Source: Alphaproteobacteria bacterium (GTDB taxonomy: Bacteria > Pseudomonadota > Alphaproteobacteria > SHVP01). From it: a stretch of 21,204 bases of DNA. This document shows positions 4,171-19,029 of this stretch, piece by piece. The notes below the pieces were generated by a model. That model worked only from the letters and a program-made list of their open reading frames with translations. It ran no database searches and was not told where the DNA came from. The stretch is taken from positions 1 to 21,204 of the forward strand of contig SHVP01000040.1 of NCBI GenBank assembly GCA_009694165.1, read 5' to 3'. Within the stretch, counting starts at the first letter, position 1. Every line of letters starts with the position of its first letter. Position numbers and translations under genes: made by a program.

Positions 4171-4575
4171 TCAGGCTTTGATCGATCCCTCGAACCACGC
4201 CCGCGCCAGATCGGTTTCGTGCAACGTGACTTTGATCTTGGCGAGGCCCTTGCCGTGTTCGCCGAGAGCCCCATCTCGGGCGGCCTTGGCCATGGCATCG
4301 AAGACATGACGGCACAAGAACTCCGTCGTCGTCAGCGTGCCTTTAAAGGCGGGTAGATCGTCGAGGTTCTTGTAGGCCAGCGGCTTGAGGGTCTTGCCAA
4401 GCACATCGAGTGCCGCGCCGATGTCGACGACGATGTTTTCACGGGTCAACGATTCACGAAAGAACGCGACATCGACCACGAAGGTGGCACCATGCATGCC
4501 CTGCGCCGGACCGAACAGCGGGTCGGGCAAACTATGGGCGATCATGATCCGGTCGCGAACTTCAACGGCGTACAT
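4171..4575 (-). CDS. PTPS/QueD-like protein with altered active site
   Basis: A 134-residue member of the 6-pyruvoyl-tetrahydropterin synthase / 6-carboxy-tetrahydropterin synthase fold. Shared features are IAHSL (H14), MHGATF (H28), the NIVVDIGAALDVL strand-helix (47-59), TTEFLCRHVFDAM (83-95) and the C-terminal VTLHET with the pterin-anchoring Glu (E120). Several catalytic features of true QueD/PTPS are missing: the third zinc histidine (HGH) is Ala30, no Cys precedes the HG motif, and the DHH/LN catalytic region reads AYKNLDD (67-73). It may therefore do different chemistry or only bind a pterin-like ligand. It sits between a dehydrogenase (26-base gap) and a glycosyltransferase (3-base gap) in one operon. 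Confidence 0.82.
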   Translation of the reverse strand: MYAVEVRDRIMIAHSLPDPLFGPAQGMHGATFVVDVAFFRESLTRENIVVDIGAALDVLGKTLKPLAYKNLDDLPAFKGTLTTTEFLCRHVFDAMAKAARDGALGEHGKGLAKIKVTLHETDLARAWFEGSIKA

Positions 4576-11848: not shown

Positions 11849-12244
11849 ATGAACATTGGAACCTTGGCCCAGCAGTCCGGCGTCAATCCCAAGACCATCC
11901 GCTACTATGAAGACATCGGCCTGCTGAAGCCGGCGGCGCGGCGCGACAACGGCTACCGCCACTATGCCGACGCCGACGTCGCCACCGTGCGCTTCATCAA
12001 AAGGGCGCGCACGCTCGGCTTCTCGACCCAGGACGTCGCCAAGCTTCTCAATCTCTGGCACGACCGCGACCGGGCCAGCGCCGACGGCCGGGCGCTCGCG
12101 ACGCGCCATGCCGCCGACATCGAGCGCCGCATCGCCGAGCTCGAAGCCGTACGCCGAACACTCCTTGATCTCGTCCATCGCTGCCACGGCGACGACCGTC
12201 CGCACTGTCCTATCCTCGACAATCTATCTCGGCCGTCCGATTGA
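11849..12244 (+). CDS. cueR: CueR-type copper-responsive MerR regulator
   Basis: A 131-residue MerR-family activator. The N-terminal winged helix reads IGTLAQQSGVNPKTIRYYED (3-22) with GLL and GYRHY following, then a dimerisation helix. The metal-binding loop has C112 and C120 in CHGDDRPHCPILDNLS, which matches the two-cysteine Cu(I)/Ag(I) site of E. coli CueR in spacing and even numbering. It probably senses cytoplasmic Cu(I) and activates the preceding oxidase gene or other copper genes by DNA distortion. It lies 16 bases behind the oxidase on the same strand, so the two form a compact copper-tolerance unit. Confidence 0.93.
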   Translation: MNIGTLAQQSGVNPKTIRYYEDIGLLKPAARRDNGYRHYADADVATVRFIKRARTLGFSTQDVAKLLNLWHDRDRASADGRALATRHAADIERRIAELEAVRRTLLDLVHRCHGDDRPHCPILDNLSRPSD

Positions 12245-12275: not shown

Positions 12276-12745
12276 GTGATCAAACGCAGCGATTGGGTTC
12301 TGGTGGCGGCCGTCGCTACCGCCTTCGGGCTCGGCTATGTCGTCGCCGAACGGATGGCGTTAGGGCCGGATTCCGAAAAAGCCGTCGAGGATATCGGTAC
12401 CCAAGTCCATTCGTCGGTGCGTGAGTTTCAACCGCTGGCCACGGAGCCATCGACGCTCGGTGAGGAAGAAACGCTTCCCGCCGATACGTATGTCACGTCC
12501 CGAGCCGCGCCCAACGCGCGCGGTGCGACCCTCTCAAGTGCCGAAGCACCATGGCGACGCTTCGCGGTCGCGGCGCCAGTTCCCGACGGCCGGCCGCGAA
12601 TCGTGATCGTCATCGACGACATGGGCGTCGACACCAAGCGAACCGCCCGGGCGGTTCGTCTTCCGGGGCCGTTGACCCTGGCCTATCTCGCTTATGCTCA
12701 CGACGGCCGGCGTCAAGCGGCAACCGCCCGTAACCATGACGGGAC
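12276..12745 (+). pseudogene. Truncated divergent polysaccharide deacetylase
   Basis: From a GTG start the product has a membrane-anchor helix (about 8-24), a low-complexity linker, and the start of a divergent polysaccharide deacetylase domain: PRIVIVIDDMGVDTKRTARA (107-126), LPGPLTLAYLAYAHD (129-143) and RRQAATARNH. The conserved HELLLH-type segment and everything beyond it are missing, and the frame degenerates after about residue 156 before stopping at 12794. A full protein would be over 300 residues. A deletion near 12745 probably removed the rest, since a different gene fragment follows on the other strand. Confidence 0.7.
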
Positions 12746-12852
12746 AGGATCGCCATCGCCGGCCCCGACTCGCGCTCACACGATTCGCAGGTGACGTGCA
12801 TCCGGGCGCCGACAATCAGCGCATCGTCGATATGTTTGATTGGGCCGCGCAT
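12715..12852 (-). pseudogene. Truncated CxxC zinc-ribbon-like small protein
   Basis: The minus-strand frame from ATG 12852 reads HIDDALIVGARMHVTCESCE, then a segment ending in GYGRLPLDAG. This pattern of a CxxC knuckle plus a Gly-Arg-Leu-Pro-Leu segment is seen in small zinc-ribbon proteins of alphaproteobacteria. The second cysteine pair expected further on is absent, because the frame enters the deacetylase fragment in antisense. It may be the other side of the same deletion junction. Identification is tentative and no clear Shine-Dalgarno is present. Confidence 0.35.
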
Positions 12853-12960
12853 GGGAGAGTTCTAGGGGCCGGACGAGCGCCTGGGCCAGCAACAAAAGTT
12901 GCAACAAACTAGACGGGACTAGGCGTGAACATGTGTTACCGGCTTGCCGCTCTAGCTCAA

Positions 12961-12980
12961 GAAACCCGAGGAAATCCGGG
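12961..12980 (-). terminator. Weak terminator-like hairpin downstream of the selC 5' fragment
   Basis: On the minus strand CCCG (12980-12977) pairs with CGGG (12968-12965) and is followed by TTTCTT. The stem is only 4-5 pairs. It lies about 85 bases past the 5' end of the tRNA(Sec) fragment, a place where the terminator of an intact selC would fit. Confidence 0.35.
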
Positions 12981-13000
12981 CTACACGGTACTAGACGATA

Positions 13001-13064
13001 ACAGGCGGGAGGGTGCGCCCAGGATTTGAAGTCCGGGCGCTCCACCGGGATGCGCTTCTCTTCC
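13001..13064 (-). tRNA. selC: 5' part of tRNA(Sec) (degenerate or split)
   Basis: On the minus strand this starts GGAAGAG (acceptor 5' strand), continues with a D arm CGCATCC-CGGT-GGAGCG, and an anticodon loop CTTCAAA with anticodon TCA at 13027-13029. That UGA-reading loop in this context is diagnostic of selenocysteine tRNA. The D stem has an unpaired A and the anticodon stem a C-U mismatch or bulge. After the anticodon stem no variable arm, TTCGA T loop or CCA end follows. A short CTCCCGCCTGTTAT matches 12 of 14 bases of the 3' fragment at 9917-9950. It begins 9 bases past the selB stop, giving the order selA-selB-selC. Confidence 0.8.
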
Positions 13065-13073
13065 GAGCCGATC

Positions 13074-13577
13074 CTACGACAGTTCCGAATTCCTGTGCGG
13101 TTCCGACAACATTGGAAATGCCTGACGCACTGATTGGGCAATGGCGCGCAGGTCGCCCCGGCGGCGGGTGAACCGGGCTCGATCGAAGAATTCCAGAAGG
13201 CGGATCGTCAGGTTTAGGCTAATCCCGGACCGATCGCGAAATTCCGCCGCCGAGAAAGCACCCGATAGGTCTTCGCTCACTAATGTCTCGGCGATTTCAC
13301 CAAGAGCGATGACCGCCGACGGTTGGAAATAGCGGTTGTCCGCAACCTTCATCAGCAAGCCGACGTCGGCGGCCCGGTCGAGAAACCCCTGAAGCGGCTG
13401 AAGCTCCAGGCCCAGCGCCGCCATCAACTCGCGGCCCCGCGGCGGACGTAGCCCTCCGGCATCGAGAAGCGGCGCGACCTGCTTCCAGAGCGTTTCGTCA
13501 GCATTACCAAGTCGCGGACGATGATCGGGCCGGCGATAGAACACCCCGCCTCGATCGATCCGTCCTGTCTCGACCAT
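13074..13577 (-). pseudogene. selB: SelB C-terminal remnant (Sec-specific elongation factor)
   Basis: About 150 residues of SelB remain, from about [19 protein letters not shown] to the natural stop at 13074. They contain winged-helix segments typical of the SelB C terminus: GLRPPRGRELMAALGLE, ADNRYFQPSAVIALGEIAE, and AAEFRDRSGISLNLTIRLLE with FFDRARFTRRRGD. These last domains bind the SECIS RNA hairpin. The whole EF-Tu-like GTPase part (over 350 residues) is gone. The first 15 codons or so of the open frame are not SelB. A SelA fragment lies immediately upstream, so one deletion probably fused the two genes. The remnant cannot deliver Sec-tRNA. Confidence 0.85.
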
Positions 13578-13581
13578 TGCC

Positions 13582-13746
13582 GACGCGGAGCGCCCGTTTC
13601 AAAGGATTGCGCTTGATGATCGCGATCAAATCGGCGCGGCCGGCGACGATCCCGGCCTGCGGACCGCCGAGAAGCTTGTCGCCGCTGAACGTGACGAGAT
13701 CGGCGCCGGCGGCGAGAGTGGCGGCAACCGTCGGCTCGTGGGGCAA
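13582..13746 (-). pseudogene. selA: SelA internal fragment (selenocysteine synthase)
   Basis: Fifty-five residues match the PLP-binding heart of L-seryl-tRNA(Sec) selenium transferase: [20 protein letters not shown], then [20 protein letters not shown] with the Schiff-base lysine, and [11 protein letters not shown]. SelA is about 460 residues, so both the N-terminal two thirds and the C terminus are missing. Upstream, the sequence turns into the leader of the divergent UGSC gene; downstream, it passes into the SelB remnant. No function is possible. Confidence 0.85.
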
Positions 13747-13771: not shown

Positions 13772-13777
13772 GGAGGT
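13772..13777 (+). promoter_or_regulatory. Ribosome binding site of the UGSC gene
   Basis: GGAGGT lies 6 bases before ATG 13784. It fixes the start and shows that the frame opening further upstream (from 13577) is only antisense shadow of selA/selB. Confidence 0.8.
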
Positions 13778-13783
13778 GGGTGG

Positions 13784-14305
13784 ATGACATCCCGCGTGTT
13801 GCTCGATCCGACATCGGAGCGGTCGCCCGAAATGCAACCGCTAGCCGAGCGGCCAGAGTCCCTGAAAGGGATTACGGTCGGCTTGCTCGATATCGGAAAG
13901 GTGCAGAGCACGATTTTCTTGGACGAGGTCGAAGCGCAGCTGAAAACCCGGGGGTTGGCGGTCGAACGGTTCCGCAAATCGACCTTCGCGCGTCCAGCCC
14001 CGCTCGGCCTTCGTCAAGAGATCGCGTCGCGTTGCAACGTAGTGATCGAGGATCTCGCCGACTGAGGATCATGCACGACGTGCAGTTTGCATGACGTGAT
14101 GGATCTGGAAGGTCGGGGGGTGCCGGCGGTCTACGTCGCCACTACCGAATTCCGCCAAGCGACCTAGGCGCAGAGTGCGTCGCTCGGCTTCGTGCCGGCC
14201 GTGATTTACGTCCAGCATCCGGTCCAGGACCGGACGCCGGACGAGGTCAAAGCCCTGGCCCGCGAGTCGCTCGACGCCGTCCTCGCCAAGATCAAAAAGT
14301 CCTAG
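13784..14305 (+). pseudogene. UGSC-family selenoprotein gene with in-frame TGA and a nonsense TAG
   Basis: The 174-codon frame reads MTSRVLLDPTSE at the start, GITVGLLDIGKVQSTIFLDE (29-48), and RCNVVIEDLAD (83-93). Then comes TGA at codon 94 (14063-14065), followed by GSCTTCSLHDVMDLEGRGVP. This is the Sec-Gly-Ser-Cys signature of the UGSC family, whose other members carry Sec or Cys here. The rest is also family-like: FVPAVIYVQHPVQDRTPDEV and a terminal helix ending at TAG 14303-14305. A second stop, TAG, breaks the frame at codon 128 (14165-14167), where a single change from GAG, AAG or CAG is likely. A bSECIS hairpin follows the TGA. Without Sec machinery the product would be 93 residues. 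Divergent selA/selB remnants lie upstream. Biochemical function of the family is not known to me. Confidence 0.85.
14074..14098 (+). promoter_or_regulatory. Bacterial SECIS element
   Basis: Bases 14074-14083 pair with 14089-14098: nine pairs including one G-U, and one A-A mismatch. The apical loop is AGTTT (14084-14088) with G in second place. The loop starts 18 bases after the TGA, inside the 16-37 base spacing usual for bacterial SECIS hairpins. It would recruit SelB-GTP-Sec-tRNA to read UGA as selenocysteine. Confidence 0.78.
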
Positions 14306-14464: not shown

Positions 14465-16255
14465 ATGCCCGACGCCAGTTCGATCCGCGCCCACCGGCCC
14501 GTCATTGCCGCCACCCGCCACGCCGCTGCGTCGGGACATTACCTGGCGACCCAGGCGGCGTTCCAAATCCTGGAAGCGGGCGGGAACGCGGTCGATGCCG
14601 GGGTCGCCGGCGCCATCGCGCTCGGCGTTCTGGAAAGCGAACTAGTGAGCTTCACCGGCGTCGCGCCGATGATCTTCTACATGGCCGAGCGCGGCGAGGT
14701 CGTCACCATCGACGGCCTCGGCGTCTGGCCGCAAGCCGCAAGCTGCGAACACTTCGTCCGCAACCACGGCGGCAAGATCCCGAAGGGCATCCTGCGCAGC
14801 GTGGTTCCGGGCGCTCCCGACGCATTTTTCACGGCGCTGGAACGCTACGGCACGATGTCCTTCGCCGACGTGGCCGCCACAGCCATCCGTTTCGCGCGCG
14901 AAGGCTTTCCCATGTATCCGCTGATGAACGAACTGCTGACCAAGCAAGCCGGCGGCATCCGCGAATTGGCGGAGAACGCGCGCATCTACCTTCCGAAGGG
15001 CCAGGCGCCCGCGATCGGCGATTTGTTCGTGCAGGCCGATTACGGTGCGACCTTGCAGTACCTGGCCGATGCTGAAGCCAAAGCCGCCAAGACCGGCGGC
15101 CGCGTCGCCGGCATCGAAGCCGCCCGCGCCGCCTTCTATCGCGGCGACGTCGCTGCCGCCATCGACCGTCACCAACGCGAGAACGGCGGCCTTCTCGCCG
15201 CCTCCGACATGGCCGACTATCGCGCCCGGGTCGAACCACCGGTCAGCGTGCGCTTCGGCGATCATCAGGTGTTCGGCTGCGGTCCGTGGTGCCAAGGCCC
15301 GATGCTGCTGCAGGAGATAGCCATCCTGAAAGGCGCGAACGTGGCCGCCATGGGTCACAATTCGGCCGACTACATCCACACCATCGTCGAAACCGTGAAA
15401 CTCGCCGCCGCCGATCGCGAGCGCTATTTCGGCGATCCCCGCTTCGTCGACGTCCCGATGGGGGCTCTGCTCGACGACCGCTATGCCGAAGCCCGTTTCA
15501 AAATGATTCAGCCCGAGCGGGCTTGCCCCGACCTGCCGCCGGCTGGAACGGTCGCGGCGGATGCGGCCGCCTGGGGCCGCAGCGGCGCGTCCGGCGGCGT
15601 ACCGCGACGGGCCAACGTCTGGCGCAGCGACAGCGGCAGCGACGCCCACGTCGGCGACAAACGCGGTCTGGACACATCCTATGTCTGCGTCGTCGACCGC
15701 CACGGCAACGCGTTCTCCTGCACGCCTAGCGACGGCATGCCCGCCTCGTCCATCGTGCCCGGACTTGGAATTGGCCCATCGCAGCGCGGCTCGCAAACCT
15801 GGGCGGTGCCCGGCCACCCCTCGATGATCGAGCCGGGCAAGCGGCCGCGCCTGACCTGCAATCCGGCCCTGGCCATCGGCCGCGACGGCAAATTTGTGAT
15901 GCCCTTCGGCACGCCTGGCGCCGACATCCAAACCCAGGCCATGTTGCAGGTGTATTTGAACCTGTTCGCGTTCGGCATGAACCCGCAAGCCGCCGTCGAG
16001 GCACCACGCGTTGCGTCGATGGGCATCCCGGATTCGTTCGAGCCGCACACCTACACGCCTGGCCTGGTGAAGATCGAAGGCGGTATCGACACCGCCGTCG
16101 GCGAGACGCTCGCCCAACGCGGGCACGTCGTTGAATGGTGGCCCGAGGGCTTCTGGCAGTTCGGGTCGGTCTGCGCGATCCTCGACGACCGGGAGAACGG
16201 CACGATGCGCGCCGTGGCCGATCATCGCCGCACAGGCGCTGCCCAAGGCTGGTAA
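14465..16255 (+). CDS. Gamma-glutamyltransferase family (Ntn-hydrolase)
   Basis: A 596-residue member of the GGT family, which self-cleaves into two subunits and hydrolyses or transfers gamma-glutamyl or acyl-amide groups. The N-terminal part has HYLATQAAFQILEAGGNAVD followed by AGVAGAIALGV, the family hallmark. The processing site and nucleophile are Thr404 in LDTSYVCVVDRHGNAFSCTPSDG; most GGTs have Thr-Thr-His where this protein has Thr-Ser-Tyr. The C-terminal subunit keeps GKRPRLTCNPALAI and PFGTPGADIQTQAMLQ. No signal peptide is seen, so it is probably cytoplasmic, unlike E. coli GGT. GAGG precedes ATG 14465. An amidase follows 78 bases downstream; the two may act on related amides. Confidence 0.9.
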   Translation: MPDASSIRAHRPVIAATRHAAASGHYLATQAAFQILEAGGNAVDAGVAGAIALGVLESELVSFTGVAPMIFYMAERGEVVTIDGLGVWPQAASCEHFVRNHGGKIPKGILRSVVPGAPDAFFTALERYGTMSFADVAATAIRFAREGFPMYPLMNELLTKQAGGIRELAENARIYLPKGQAPAIGDLFVQADYGATLQYLADAEAKAAKTGGRVAGIEAARAAFYRGDVAAAIDRHQRENGGLLAASDMADYRARVEPPVSVRFGDHQVFGCGPWCQGPMLLQEIAILKGANVAAMGHNSADYIHTIVETVKLAAADRERYFGDPRFVDVPMGALLDDRYAEARFKMIQPERACPDLPPAGTVAADAAAWGRSGASGGVPRRANVWRSDSGSDAHVGDKRGLDTSYVCVVDRHGNAFSCTPSDGMPASSIVPGLGIGPSQRGSQTWAVPGHPSMIEPGKRPRLTCNPALAIGRDGKFVMPFGTPGADIQTQAMLQVYLNLFAFGMNPQAAVEAPRVASMGIPDSFEPHTYTPGLVKIEGGIDTAVGETLAQRGHVVEWWPEGFWQFGSVCAILDDRENGTMRAVADHRRTGAAQGW

Positions 16256-17808: not shown

Positions 17809-19029
17809 CTACGGATCTTTCTTTATCTTCGGCAGGAACCACGCGAGCAAGCCGATCGCGGGCAGAAACGAGCAGACTTGGTAGACGGTCTCGACGCTGG
17901 TGTAGTCGGCGAGTTCGCCGAGAATGGCCGCCGCGATGCCGCCGAATCCGAAGGCCAGCCCATAGAACAGCCCGCCAATCAGTCCGGCACGGCCGGGCGC
18001 CAGCTCCATCGCGTAGATCATGATCGAGGCGAACGCGCTGGCCATGATCAAGTTGATCACGACGGTCAGCACACCGGTCCAGAACAAGTCCACGTAGGGC
18101 AGCAGGATCGTCACCGGCAGTGCGCCGATGATGGAGAACCAGATGATCTTGTCGCGGCCGATCCGGTCGCCGAGCGCGCCGCCCGCCAAGGCTCCGGCCG
18201 CCGACGAACAGAGGAAGAGGAACAGCATCAACTGCGATCCCTGCACGGACATGCCGAATTTATCGATCAGGTAGAAGGTATAGAAAGACGTAAAGCTGGC
18301 CGTGTAGGCGTTCTTCGAAAACAGCAGGACCATCAAGATCGCCAGGAGGAATGCGACTCGGCCGGTCGAAAGGGTGCTACGCGGCGCGGGCGATTCGTGA
18401 ACGGCTTTCGGGGCCGCGGCCTGTTGTTTCCGAATATGGGCAAAGCGACCGGCTGTCCACGTCATCAAGACCATGGCGATCAGGGCCGCGGCCGAGAACC
18501 AGGCGAGGCTCGTCTGCCCGCGGGGCACAATGATGAACGCCGCCAAAATCGGTCCGAGCGCGCCCCCCGCCTGCCCGCCCACTTGGAAGATTCCTTGCGC
18601 CAAGCCGAGCTGGCCGCCGGAGGCGTTGCGGGCCATGCGTGTGGCTTCGGGGTGGAAAATGGAGGAGCCAACGCCGACACAGGCGGCCGCGGCGAGCAGC
18701 AACAGATAGGTGTCCGCATAGGCTAGACCAAGGAGCCCGGCGAGCGTAAAGCCCATGCCGGCCACCATCGAGAATGGCATTGGGTGTCGATCGGTGTAAT
18801 AGCCGATGAGTGGCTGAAACAGCGACGCGGTGACCTGGAAGGTCAGCGTGATCAGCCCGATCTGGCCGAAATCGAGAGCGTAGGCGGTTTTGATGATCGG
18901 GTAGATCGCCGGAATCAGCGACTGGATCATGTCGTTCAGAAGGTGTGTGGCGCTGATCGCGATCAAGACCGACATCGCGATCGTGCGCGAGGTCGCCGTC
19001 GAGGCGTTACCGCTGTGGCCGTCCATCAT
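17809..19029 (-). CDS. fsr: MFS transporter, fosmidomycin-resistance (Fsr) type
   Basis: A 406-residue, 12-helix major facilitator protein. The N terminus ISATHLLNDMIQSLIPAIYP (about 25-44) and QIGLITLTFQVTASLFQPLIGYYTDRHP are hallmarks of the Fsr subgroup; GVGSSIFHPEATRMAR follows in helix 4-5. A basic cytoplasmic loop (KQQAAAPKAVHESPAP) separates the two halves, and the second half carries the GDRIGRDK inter-helix motif. Members export fosmidomycin or other small molecules by proton antiport, though natural substrates are mostly unknown. It is transcribed alone, convergent with the amidase. Confidence 0.92.
   Translation of the reverse strand: MMDGHSGNASTATSRTIAMSVLIAISATHLLNDMIQSLIPAIYPIIKTAYALDFGQIGLITLTFQVTASLFQPLIGYYTDRHPMPFSMVAGMGFTLAGLLGLAYADTYLLLLAAAACVGVGSSIFHPEATRMARNASGGQLGLAQGIFQVGGQAGGALGPILAAFIIVPRGQTSLAWFSAAALIAMVLMTWTAGRFAHIRKQQAAAPKAVHESPAPRSTLSTGRVAFLLAILMVLLFSKNAYTASFTSFYTFYLIDKFGMSVQGSQLMLFLFLCSSAAGALAGGALGDRIGRDKIIWFSIIGALPVTILLPYVDLFWTGVLTVVINLIMASAFASIMIYAMELAPGRAGLIGGLFYGLAFGFGGIAAAILGELADYTSVETVYQVCSFLPAIGLLAWFLPKIKKDP

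Follow-up and report, generated by a model that had tools for sequence, protein, structure and literature searches.

Does the UGSC gene on this alphaproteobacterial contig still encode a selenoprotein, or is it the remnant of one, stranded when the machinery that read its UGA codon as selenocysteine (Sec) was lost? We analysed the whole stretch of 21,204 nucleotides, called the window below. A first-pass annotation of this DNA had proposed a UGSC selenoprotein gene with an intact UGA and SECIS hairpin, a second, nonsense stop, and ruined Sec genes next door, and had inferred that the gene was caught shortly after loss of its decoding system. We favour, with a probability of roughly 0.8, the reading that the locus is a selenoprotein pseudogene beside the fossil of its own selABC cluster.

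Table 1. Features of the UGSC locus and its surroundings (window coordinates)
Feature	Position	Strand	Remarks
CueR-type MerR regulator, full-length	11849..12244	+	left boundary of decayed stretch; NCBIfam
Truncated divergent polysaccharide deacetylase	12276..12794	+	Pfam profile positions 1-44 of 212
Putative tRNA-Sec remnant	13022..13065	-	5' half: D-arm, anticodon arm (UCA)
SelB remnant	13074..13589	-	C-terminal winged-helix part only
SelA remnant	13582..13746	-	55 middle residues, [12 protein letters not shown] among them; both terminal parts gone
GGAGG, Shine-Dalgarno-like	13772..13776	+	7 nt 5' of ATG 13784; direct reading
Probable UGSC-family selenoprotein pseudogene	13784..14305	+	conceptual 173 codons; TGA at 94, TAG at 128
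In-frame TGA, the family's Sec codon	14063..14065	+	codon 94
SECIS hairpin	14066..14106	+	apical stem-loop 14079-14093, loop GUU
Second in-frame stop TAG	14165..14167	+	codon 128
Gamma-glutamyltransferase, full-length	14465..16255	+	right boundary of decayed stretch; Pfam, NCBIfam

The UGSC frame, its Sec codon and its second stop

A single reading frame matches UGSC proteins upstream of the TGA, between the two stops, and downstream of the TAG. The Pfam UGSC profile spans the TGA (residues 6-126, E 4.8e-32, above the cut-off), and the 45 residues 3' of the TAG correspond in the same frame to the C-terminal end of the family, a match that is weak when this piece is scored alone (Pfam E 0.0047, NCBIfam E 2.2e-4, both under the curated cut-offs). 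The NCBIfam cut-off of 125 bits applies to the whole protein, and the two UGSC pieces score 101.8 and 21.2 bits singly, neither reaching it. The frame thus matches the UGSC family (PF24696/NF041046) over the family's length, and direct reading places its natural end at the terminal TAG 14303-14305. Three public full-length homologues (P0002-P0004) cover 98, 97, and 98% of the read-through frame with 54-56% identity. The region after codon 94, on whose alignment to UGSC proteins the first-pass annotation had staked its selenoprotein call, does align, and the call survives. The Sec/Cys-Gly-Ser-Cys motif, a downstream Cys, and a His-Asp pair are all kept; the D-U-G-S-C, later C, and H-D columns are invariant in 80 of 80 relatives when the Sec codon is written as C. 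A DNA pattern for the motif gave one other match in the window, at 4386, and two matches were reached in 1 of 100 shuffles.

Relatives place selenocysteine at the TGA. A scan of GTDB genomes yielded 482 UGSC relatives, and among the best 80 of these the Sec codon is TGA in 79 and TAG in one, Geodermatophilus obscurus (L080, around 10280), which has the same hairpin and agrees with the UAG-Sec code described for Geodermatophilaceae, UGSC proteins included (PMC5330540). A UAG-decoding Sec system of this type was rejected for the window, where the TAG is codon 128, not the Sec codon, and the tRNA remnant has the anticodon UCA. Several other genes in the window have TGA as their stop and an open frame at 17809-19029, a transporter by its look, has TAG, so both triplets serve as stops here. 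Among 5.8 billion proteins searched, 140 matched; of the 120 listed, 112 are 95-150 residues long, most stopping where the UGA would be, and eight, of 173-187 residues, align across both stops with 35-55% identity and carry Cys (seven) or Trp (one) at the Sec position.

The hairpin 3' of the TGA folds with -18 kcal/mol (z -2.63; 6 of 200 shuffles equally good). In an alignment of the window with 53 of the 80 relatives, 95.4% of the cells of the apical stem (14079-14084 with 14088-14093) are paired across the 54 sequences, and 17 nt of the apical stem-loop are identical to those of 5 of the 53 relatives. Four of the six apical pairs are invariant and one is broken in 15 sequences. For one pair, one count found a change on both sides in six sequences and another found one-sided changes only and no two-sided change, a difference that arises because the second count takes another commonest pair. 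The covariation score was matched by 11 of 500 shuffles. Because covariation is thin and coding constraint acts on the same sequence, conservation itself is the main evidence for the SECIS. These comparisons support the call of a UGSC selenoprotein gene with its TGA at the Sec position and its SECIS apical stem-loop intact, much as first proposed. The locus accordingly retains a UGA at the Sec position and a SECIS hairpin, the signals expected of a functional selenoprotein gene; an open frame from the UGA to the natural end is lacking, being interrupted by the TAG.

Relatives do not share this second stop. In the window, 80 codons separate the TGA from the terminal stop and the TAG lies 34 codons past the TGA. 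The corresponding distance is 79-87 codons in 79 of the 80 relatives; in the last, the contig ends before the stop. Read from 88 codons 5' of the Sec codon as far as the natural end (or, in that one relative, the contig edge), all 80 are free of a second in-frame stop. Nor does a second stop occur in any of 100 UGSC matches in 38 of 385 genomes; 95 of these matches have one TGA and five have no stop. The genomes sampled share the class of a Reyranella genome, taken here to be the Alphaproteobacteria, and at most eight candidates were scored in each. Apart from this stop, the window shares with the UGSC family the family-length match, the Sec codon, the later Cys and His-Asp, and the SECIS. The TAG itself, read directly in the read-through frame, falls in a column that varies widely in the family and is never Cys in the 80 relatives.

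An AlphaFold model of an intact UGSC protein (L049, 4533-5036) shows a five-stranded, alternating alpha/beta, flavodoxin/receiver-like fold, which disagrees with the thioredoxin-like fold suggested for UGSC in the literature. A search of solved structures with a UGSC sequence profile gave no match up to E 1. A separate UGSC protein, from L078, has weak NCBIfam matches to glycine/sarcosine reductase selenoprotein B (E 0.002-0.005). The TAG maps to the penultimate helix of the L049 model, and by this model a 127-residue product would end before the last strand and helix.

Could the gene live on in a Sec-free form, with a useful 93-residue product that ends at the UGA? Its first 93 codons are open behind a good ribosome-binding site, and their identity to the listed homologues that cover this part is mostly 52-63%. 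Judged by the model of the relative, such a product would be without any of the redox motif and would have only half the fold, and the second stop, absent from all 80 loci and all 100 matches, also speaks against a gene kept in this form. We regard this explanation as highly improbable and prefer that of a pseudogene.

Fragments of the Sec machinery beside the gene

Pieces of SelA, SelB, and tRNA-Sec follow one another on a single strand, opposite to UGSC and immediately left of it. The SelB and SelA remnants meet in different frames, and the SelB frame stops ahead of the tRNA-Sec piece. In 29 of 30 SelB loci examined, SelA lies ahead of SelB on the same strand, and ARAGORN finds tRNA-Sec directly after SelB in 15 of the 30, making selA-selB-selC on one strand the usual order. 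The ruined Sec genes that the first-pass annotation had reported are thus present as SelA and SelB fragments, and the damage extends to a tRNA-Sec gene that it had not named.

Rfam model RF01852 matches the tRNA piece weakly (23.7 bits, E 0.079; cut-off 47), and neither ARAGORN nor Rfam at the gathering score calls it. A complete tRNA-Sec, with its long acceptor and variable arm, is absent: the variable arm, T-arm, and 3' acceptor strand are missing. We compared the piece with 16 intact tRNA-Sec sequences (15 genes, the L002 and L088 sequences being the same), each with 300 base shuffles. Local scores were 33-40 against L002/L088, L003, L015, L036, and L076 (shuffle maxima 12-15) and 21-30 against seven others (13-22); L087 gave 16, equal to its shuffle maximum, and L023 and L043, which have another type of tRNA-Sec, gave 9, under their shuffle maxima. 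From this resemblance we take 13065-13022 to be the 5' half of a tRNA-Sec gene.

A complete Sec system might nevertheless exist elsewhere in the genome, the fragments being a redundant second selABC, in which case only this UGSC gene would be dead or it would yield a 127-residue Sec protein. Genomes with up to eight UGSC genes occur in the 385-genome sample, so the loss of one copy could be cheap. Two full selABC sets in one genome would be unusual, which counts against this possibility, as do the contig, which offers nothing positive for it, and the loss of the last strand and helix from the shorter product in the relative's model. A broken selC beside selB, with a further selC elsewhere, is indeed known from bacteria (PMC8124441). 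In Sinorhizobium meliloti pSymA and a Rhizobium lineage, a tRNA-Sec remnant lies at the end of selB (Mukai 2021, PMC8124441), and in S. meliloti, as in the window, only the 5' half of tRNA-Sec remains beside selB. There, selB is reported to survive and to extend at its C-terminal end over the tRNA piece (PMC8124441), whereas the window's selB is mostly deleted. Because such 5'-half remnants occur with an intact selB and with selC elsewhere, as described for S. meliloti pSymA (PMC8124441), the tRNA piece alone proves nothing. On balance, we consider a redundant cluster unlikely, and a genuine fossil of the gene's own selABC cluster the better account.

UGSC, SelA, and SelB run together in eight of the 80 loci (L002, L003, L006, L014, L015, L020, L036, and L076), all betaproteobacterial records by their titles, although that of L020, a bin labelled Bordetella parapertussis, seems doubtful. 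Among the seven scanned for it (all but L020), tRNA-Sec follows SelB in six, and none was found in L014. UGSC in the window is oriented opposite to UGSC in all eight. Three genomes examined for arrangement (L152-L154) have UGSC and selAB divergent; they differ from the window in having tRNA-Sec on the UGSC strand, and their SelB is ~29-32% identical to that of L002. They show only that divergent arrangements exist. Given that they do, the window could be accounted for without an inversion, by a deletion that began within selA and stopped just short of UGSC.

Linkage between the gene and its machinery also extends to whole genomes. SelB scores above the cut-off in 34 of the 38 genomes with UGSC. 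Among the 35 with UGA-type UGSC, 33 have such a SelB, so that nearly all the sampled genomes that carry a UGA-type UGSC gene are able to read it. The other three have only stop-free UGSC, one with SelB (G254) and two without (G334 and G371). G346, with UGA-type UGSC, has a SelB piece at a contig edge and a 79-bit tRNA-Sec. Separately, G020 (L098) has four UGA-type UGSC genes, no SelA match, and neither SelB nor tRNA-Sec above the cut-off; it is either an incomplete genome or another case of Sec loss.

Two further observations concern the family's gene context. In 73 of the 80 loci, the gene immediately ahead of UGSC encodes a protein of ~480 residues with an N-terminal CxxC (for example, L002 8553-9989 and L078 8532-9983), for which the two sequences tested, from L002 and L078, gave no Pfam family; it is likely a functional partner of UGSC. 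A search of the window for a remnant of this 478-residue partner found no match (best tblastn E 0.18). In several genomes, UGSC lies inside long reading frames of ~500-715 residues, in keeping with a 2008 report of fusions to another domain (PMC2398784).

The decay covers a stretch from ~12.7 to 14.3 kb, which takes in the end of the polysaccharide deacetylase gene, itself cut toward the tRNA-Sec remnant at the edge of the stretch. By Pfam and NCBIfam, genes on either side look full-length: for riboflavin synthesis, a glycosyltransferase, a flavoprotein, a multicopper oxidase, and CueR on the left, and for gamma-glutamyltransferase and an amidase on the right. The ~290 nt between deacetylase and tRNA-Sec remnant (12735-13021) gave no Rfam match from 12750 on, Pfam matched neither frame 12694-12912 nor frame 12776-13141, and four other reading frames of the decayed stretch gave nothing in Pfam at E 0.1. 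The only repeats around it are direct ones of 14-17 nt and inverted ones of 12-16 nt, which we judged to be chance and rejected as ends of an insertion element.

This local damage bears on whether the lesions are artefacts, the TAG a base error and the Sec fragments a metagenome misassembly. Such an origin would suit a single nonsense codon at a variable site on one contig that has no close relative among 120 listed gamma-glutamyltransferase homologues; the 119 besides the protein itself, among the matches listed (120 of 4603), are 53-59% identical and carry names that include Rhodospirillales, Bradyrhizobiaceae, Proteobacteria, and Burkholderiales. It fits poorly with several lesions within ~2 kb (selA, selB, selC, deacetylase, and UGSC) between long full-length genes, since damage this local argues against generally poor sequence, and the base composition of the decayed stretch resembles that of the rest of the contig. 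We hold an artefact to be improbable, more so than a redundant cluster, and continue with true decay of the selABC cluster and its client.

Extent and order of decay

At sites at least 95% conserved, the UGSC gene keeps 45 of 50 residues, with the Sec codon counted, and departs at five; the relatives' median is 0 departures, and one relative (L033) also has five. When the threshold is lowered to 90%, the window departs at 8 of 63 sites and the most deviant relative at 6; at the 97% level it departs at 3 of 44, with one relative equal, and at the 99% level at 2 of 30, with three relatives equal. The 80 relatives in these comparisons are the best matches, a choice that favours conserved sequences. 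In a maximum-likelihood UGSC tree of 81 rows, the window has the longest end branch, 1.36, the next being 0.98. The long branch and the changes at conserved sites fit relaxed selection; with no close relatives these two measures are confounded, and they may partly mark an undersampled lineage.

Under a neutral model, 14-26 substitutions would explain 3-5 conserved-site changes, with 0.4-0.8 new stops expected. If all five changes are neutral, ~24-26 substitutions (0.046-0.049 per site) are needed, for which 0.6-0.8 stops are expected and one is observed. About 0.03-0.05 neutral substitutions per site would suffice for the conserved-site changes, an estimate of age that is rough because some changes may predate the loss. 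At this low precision, the figures suggest that the UGSC gene is in early decay.

We infer the following history. The ancestor would have had selA-selB-selC adjoining the UGSC selenoprotein gene, whose UGA would have been decoded as Sec by way of the hairpin 3' of it. Deletions would then have left little of selA, stripped selB of its GTPase part, and cut the 3' half from selC. With selABC gone, the UGA would act as a stop and yield a 93-residue fragment, and the UGSC gene would have been freed to decay, acquiring the second stop at codon 128 and some of the conserved-site changes while the Sec motif and SECIS stayed legible. The decay scenario of the first-pass annotation stands as far as the gene, its Sec TGA, the SECIS, the nonsense codon, and the ruined Sec genes are concerned; loss of the trait from this genome, the order of events, and the word "shortly" go beyond what these features establish. 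Loss of function, too, is a deduction from the lesions. We put at somewhat less than even odds the fuller proposal that the machinery and its client selenoprotein died together in one cluster and did so recently, as a readable anticodon, SECIS, UGA, and active-site motif would suggest, the machinery going first by deletions and the client afterwards by point mutation, so that the locus would be a datable transitional state in the contraction of a genetic code.

Known parallels and what the locus offers

Several described cases resemble parts of this picture. First, in Yersinia pestis CO92 and Mediaevalis, a selB pseudogene strands the UGA of formate dehydrogenase (PMC1273633); there, as in the window, a selenoprotein UGA is left behind by a broken Sec system (PMC1273633). 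According to that report, a frameshift in selB is the sole lesion, and selA, selC, and selD are kept (PMC1273633); a second report notes that frameshifting at a G run might still yield protein (PMC1780047). In the window, by contrast, nothing but pieces remains of selA, selB, and selC, and a nonsense stop interrupts the client as well. Second, Helicobacter pylori has lost the Sec trait, as the genome of the window probably has, and retains one recognisable sel gene (PMC4607533). In that case, selA is described as intact and thought to be reused, with no other sel or selenoprotein genes found in the report (PMC4607533), whereas everything in the window is in pieces. Third, remnants of SECIS-like hairpins are known from Cys homologues descended from selenoproteins (PMC1794560), where, as in the window, the SECIS outlives the use of Sec (PMC1794560). 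Those genes live on with Cys (PMC1794560); in the window, the UGA is still present and the gene is broken. In the open-licence literature, we found no report of a UGSC pseudogene.

The process is thus a known one, and the window locus adds to it a fuller case, unusually complete and readable. Standard tools can miss such fossils: ARAGORN and Rfam at its gathering threshold passed over the tRNA piece, and ordinary gene calling would stop at codon 93. Use of Sec is scattered over the bacteria, and its loss has mostly been deduced from absence. By its appearance, the locus is a fossil of a lost translation trick, that of the twenty-first amino acid. Because selA, selB, selC, and the client are all recognisable, their lesions can be counted, which could make the order and speed of Sec loss testable in this population.
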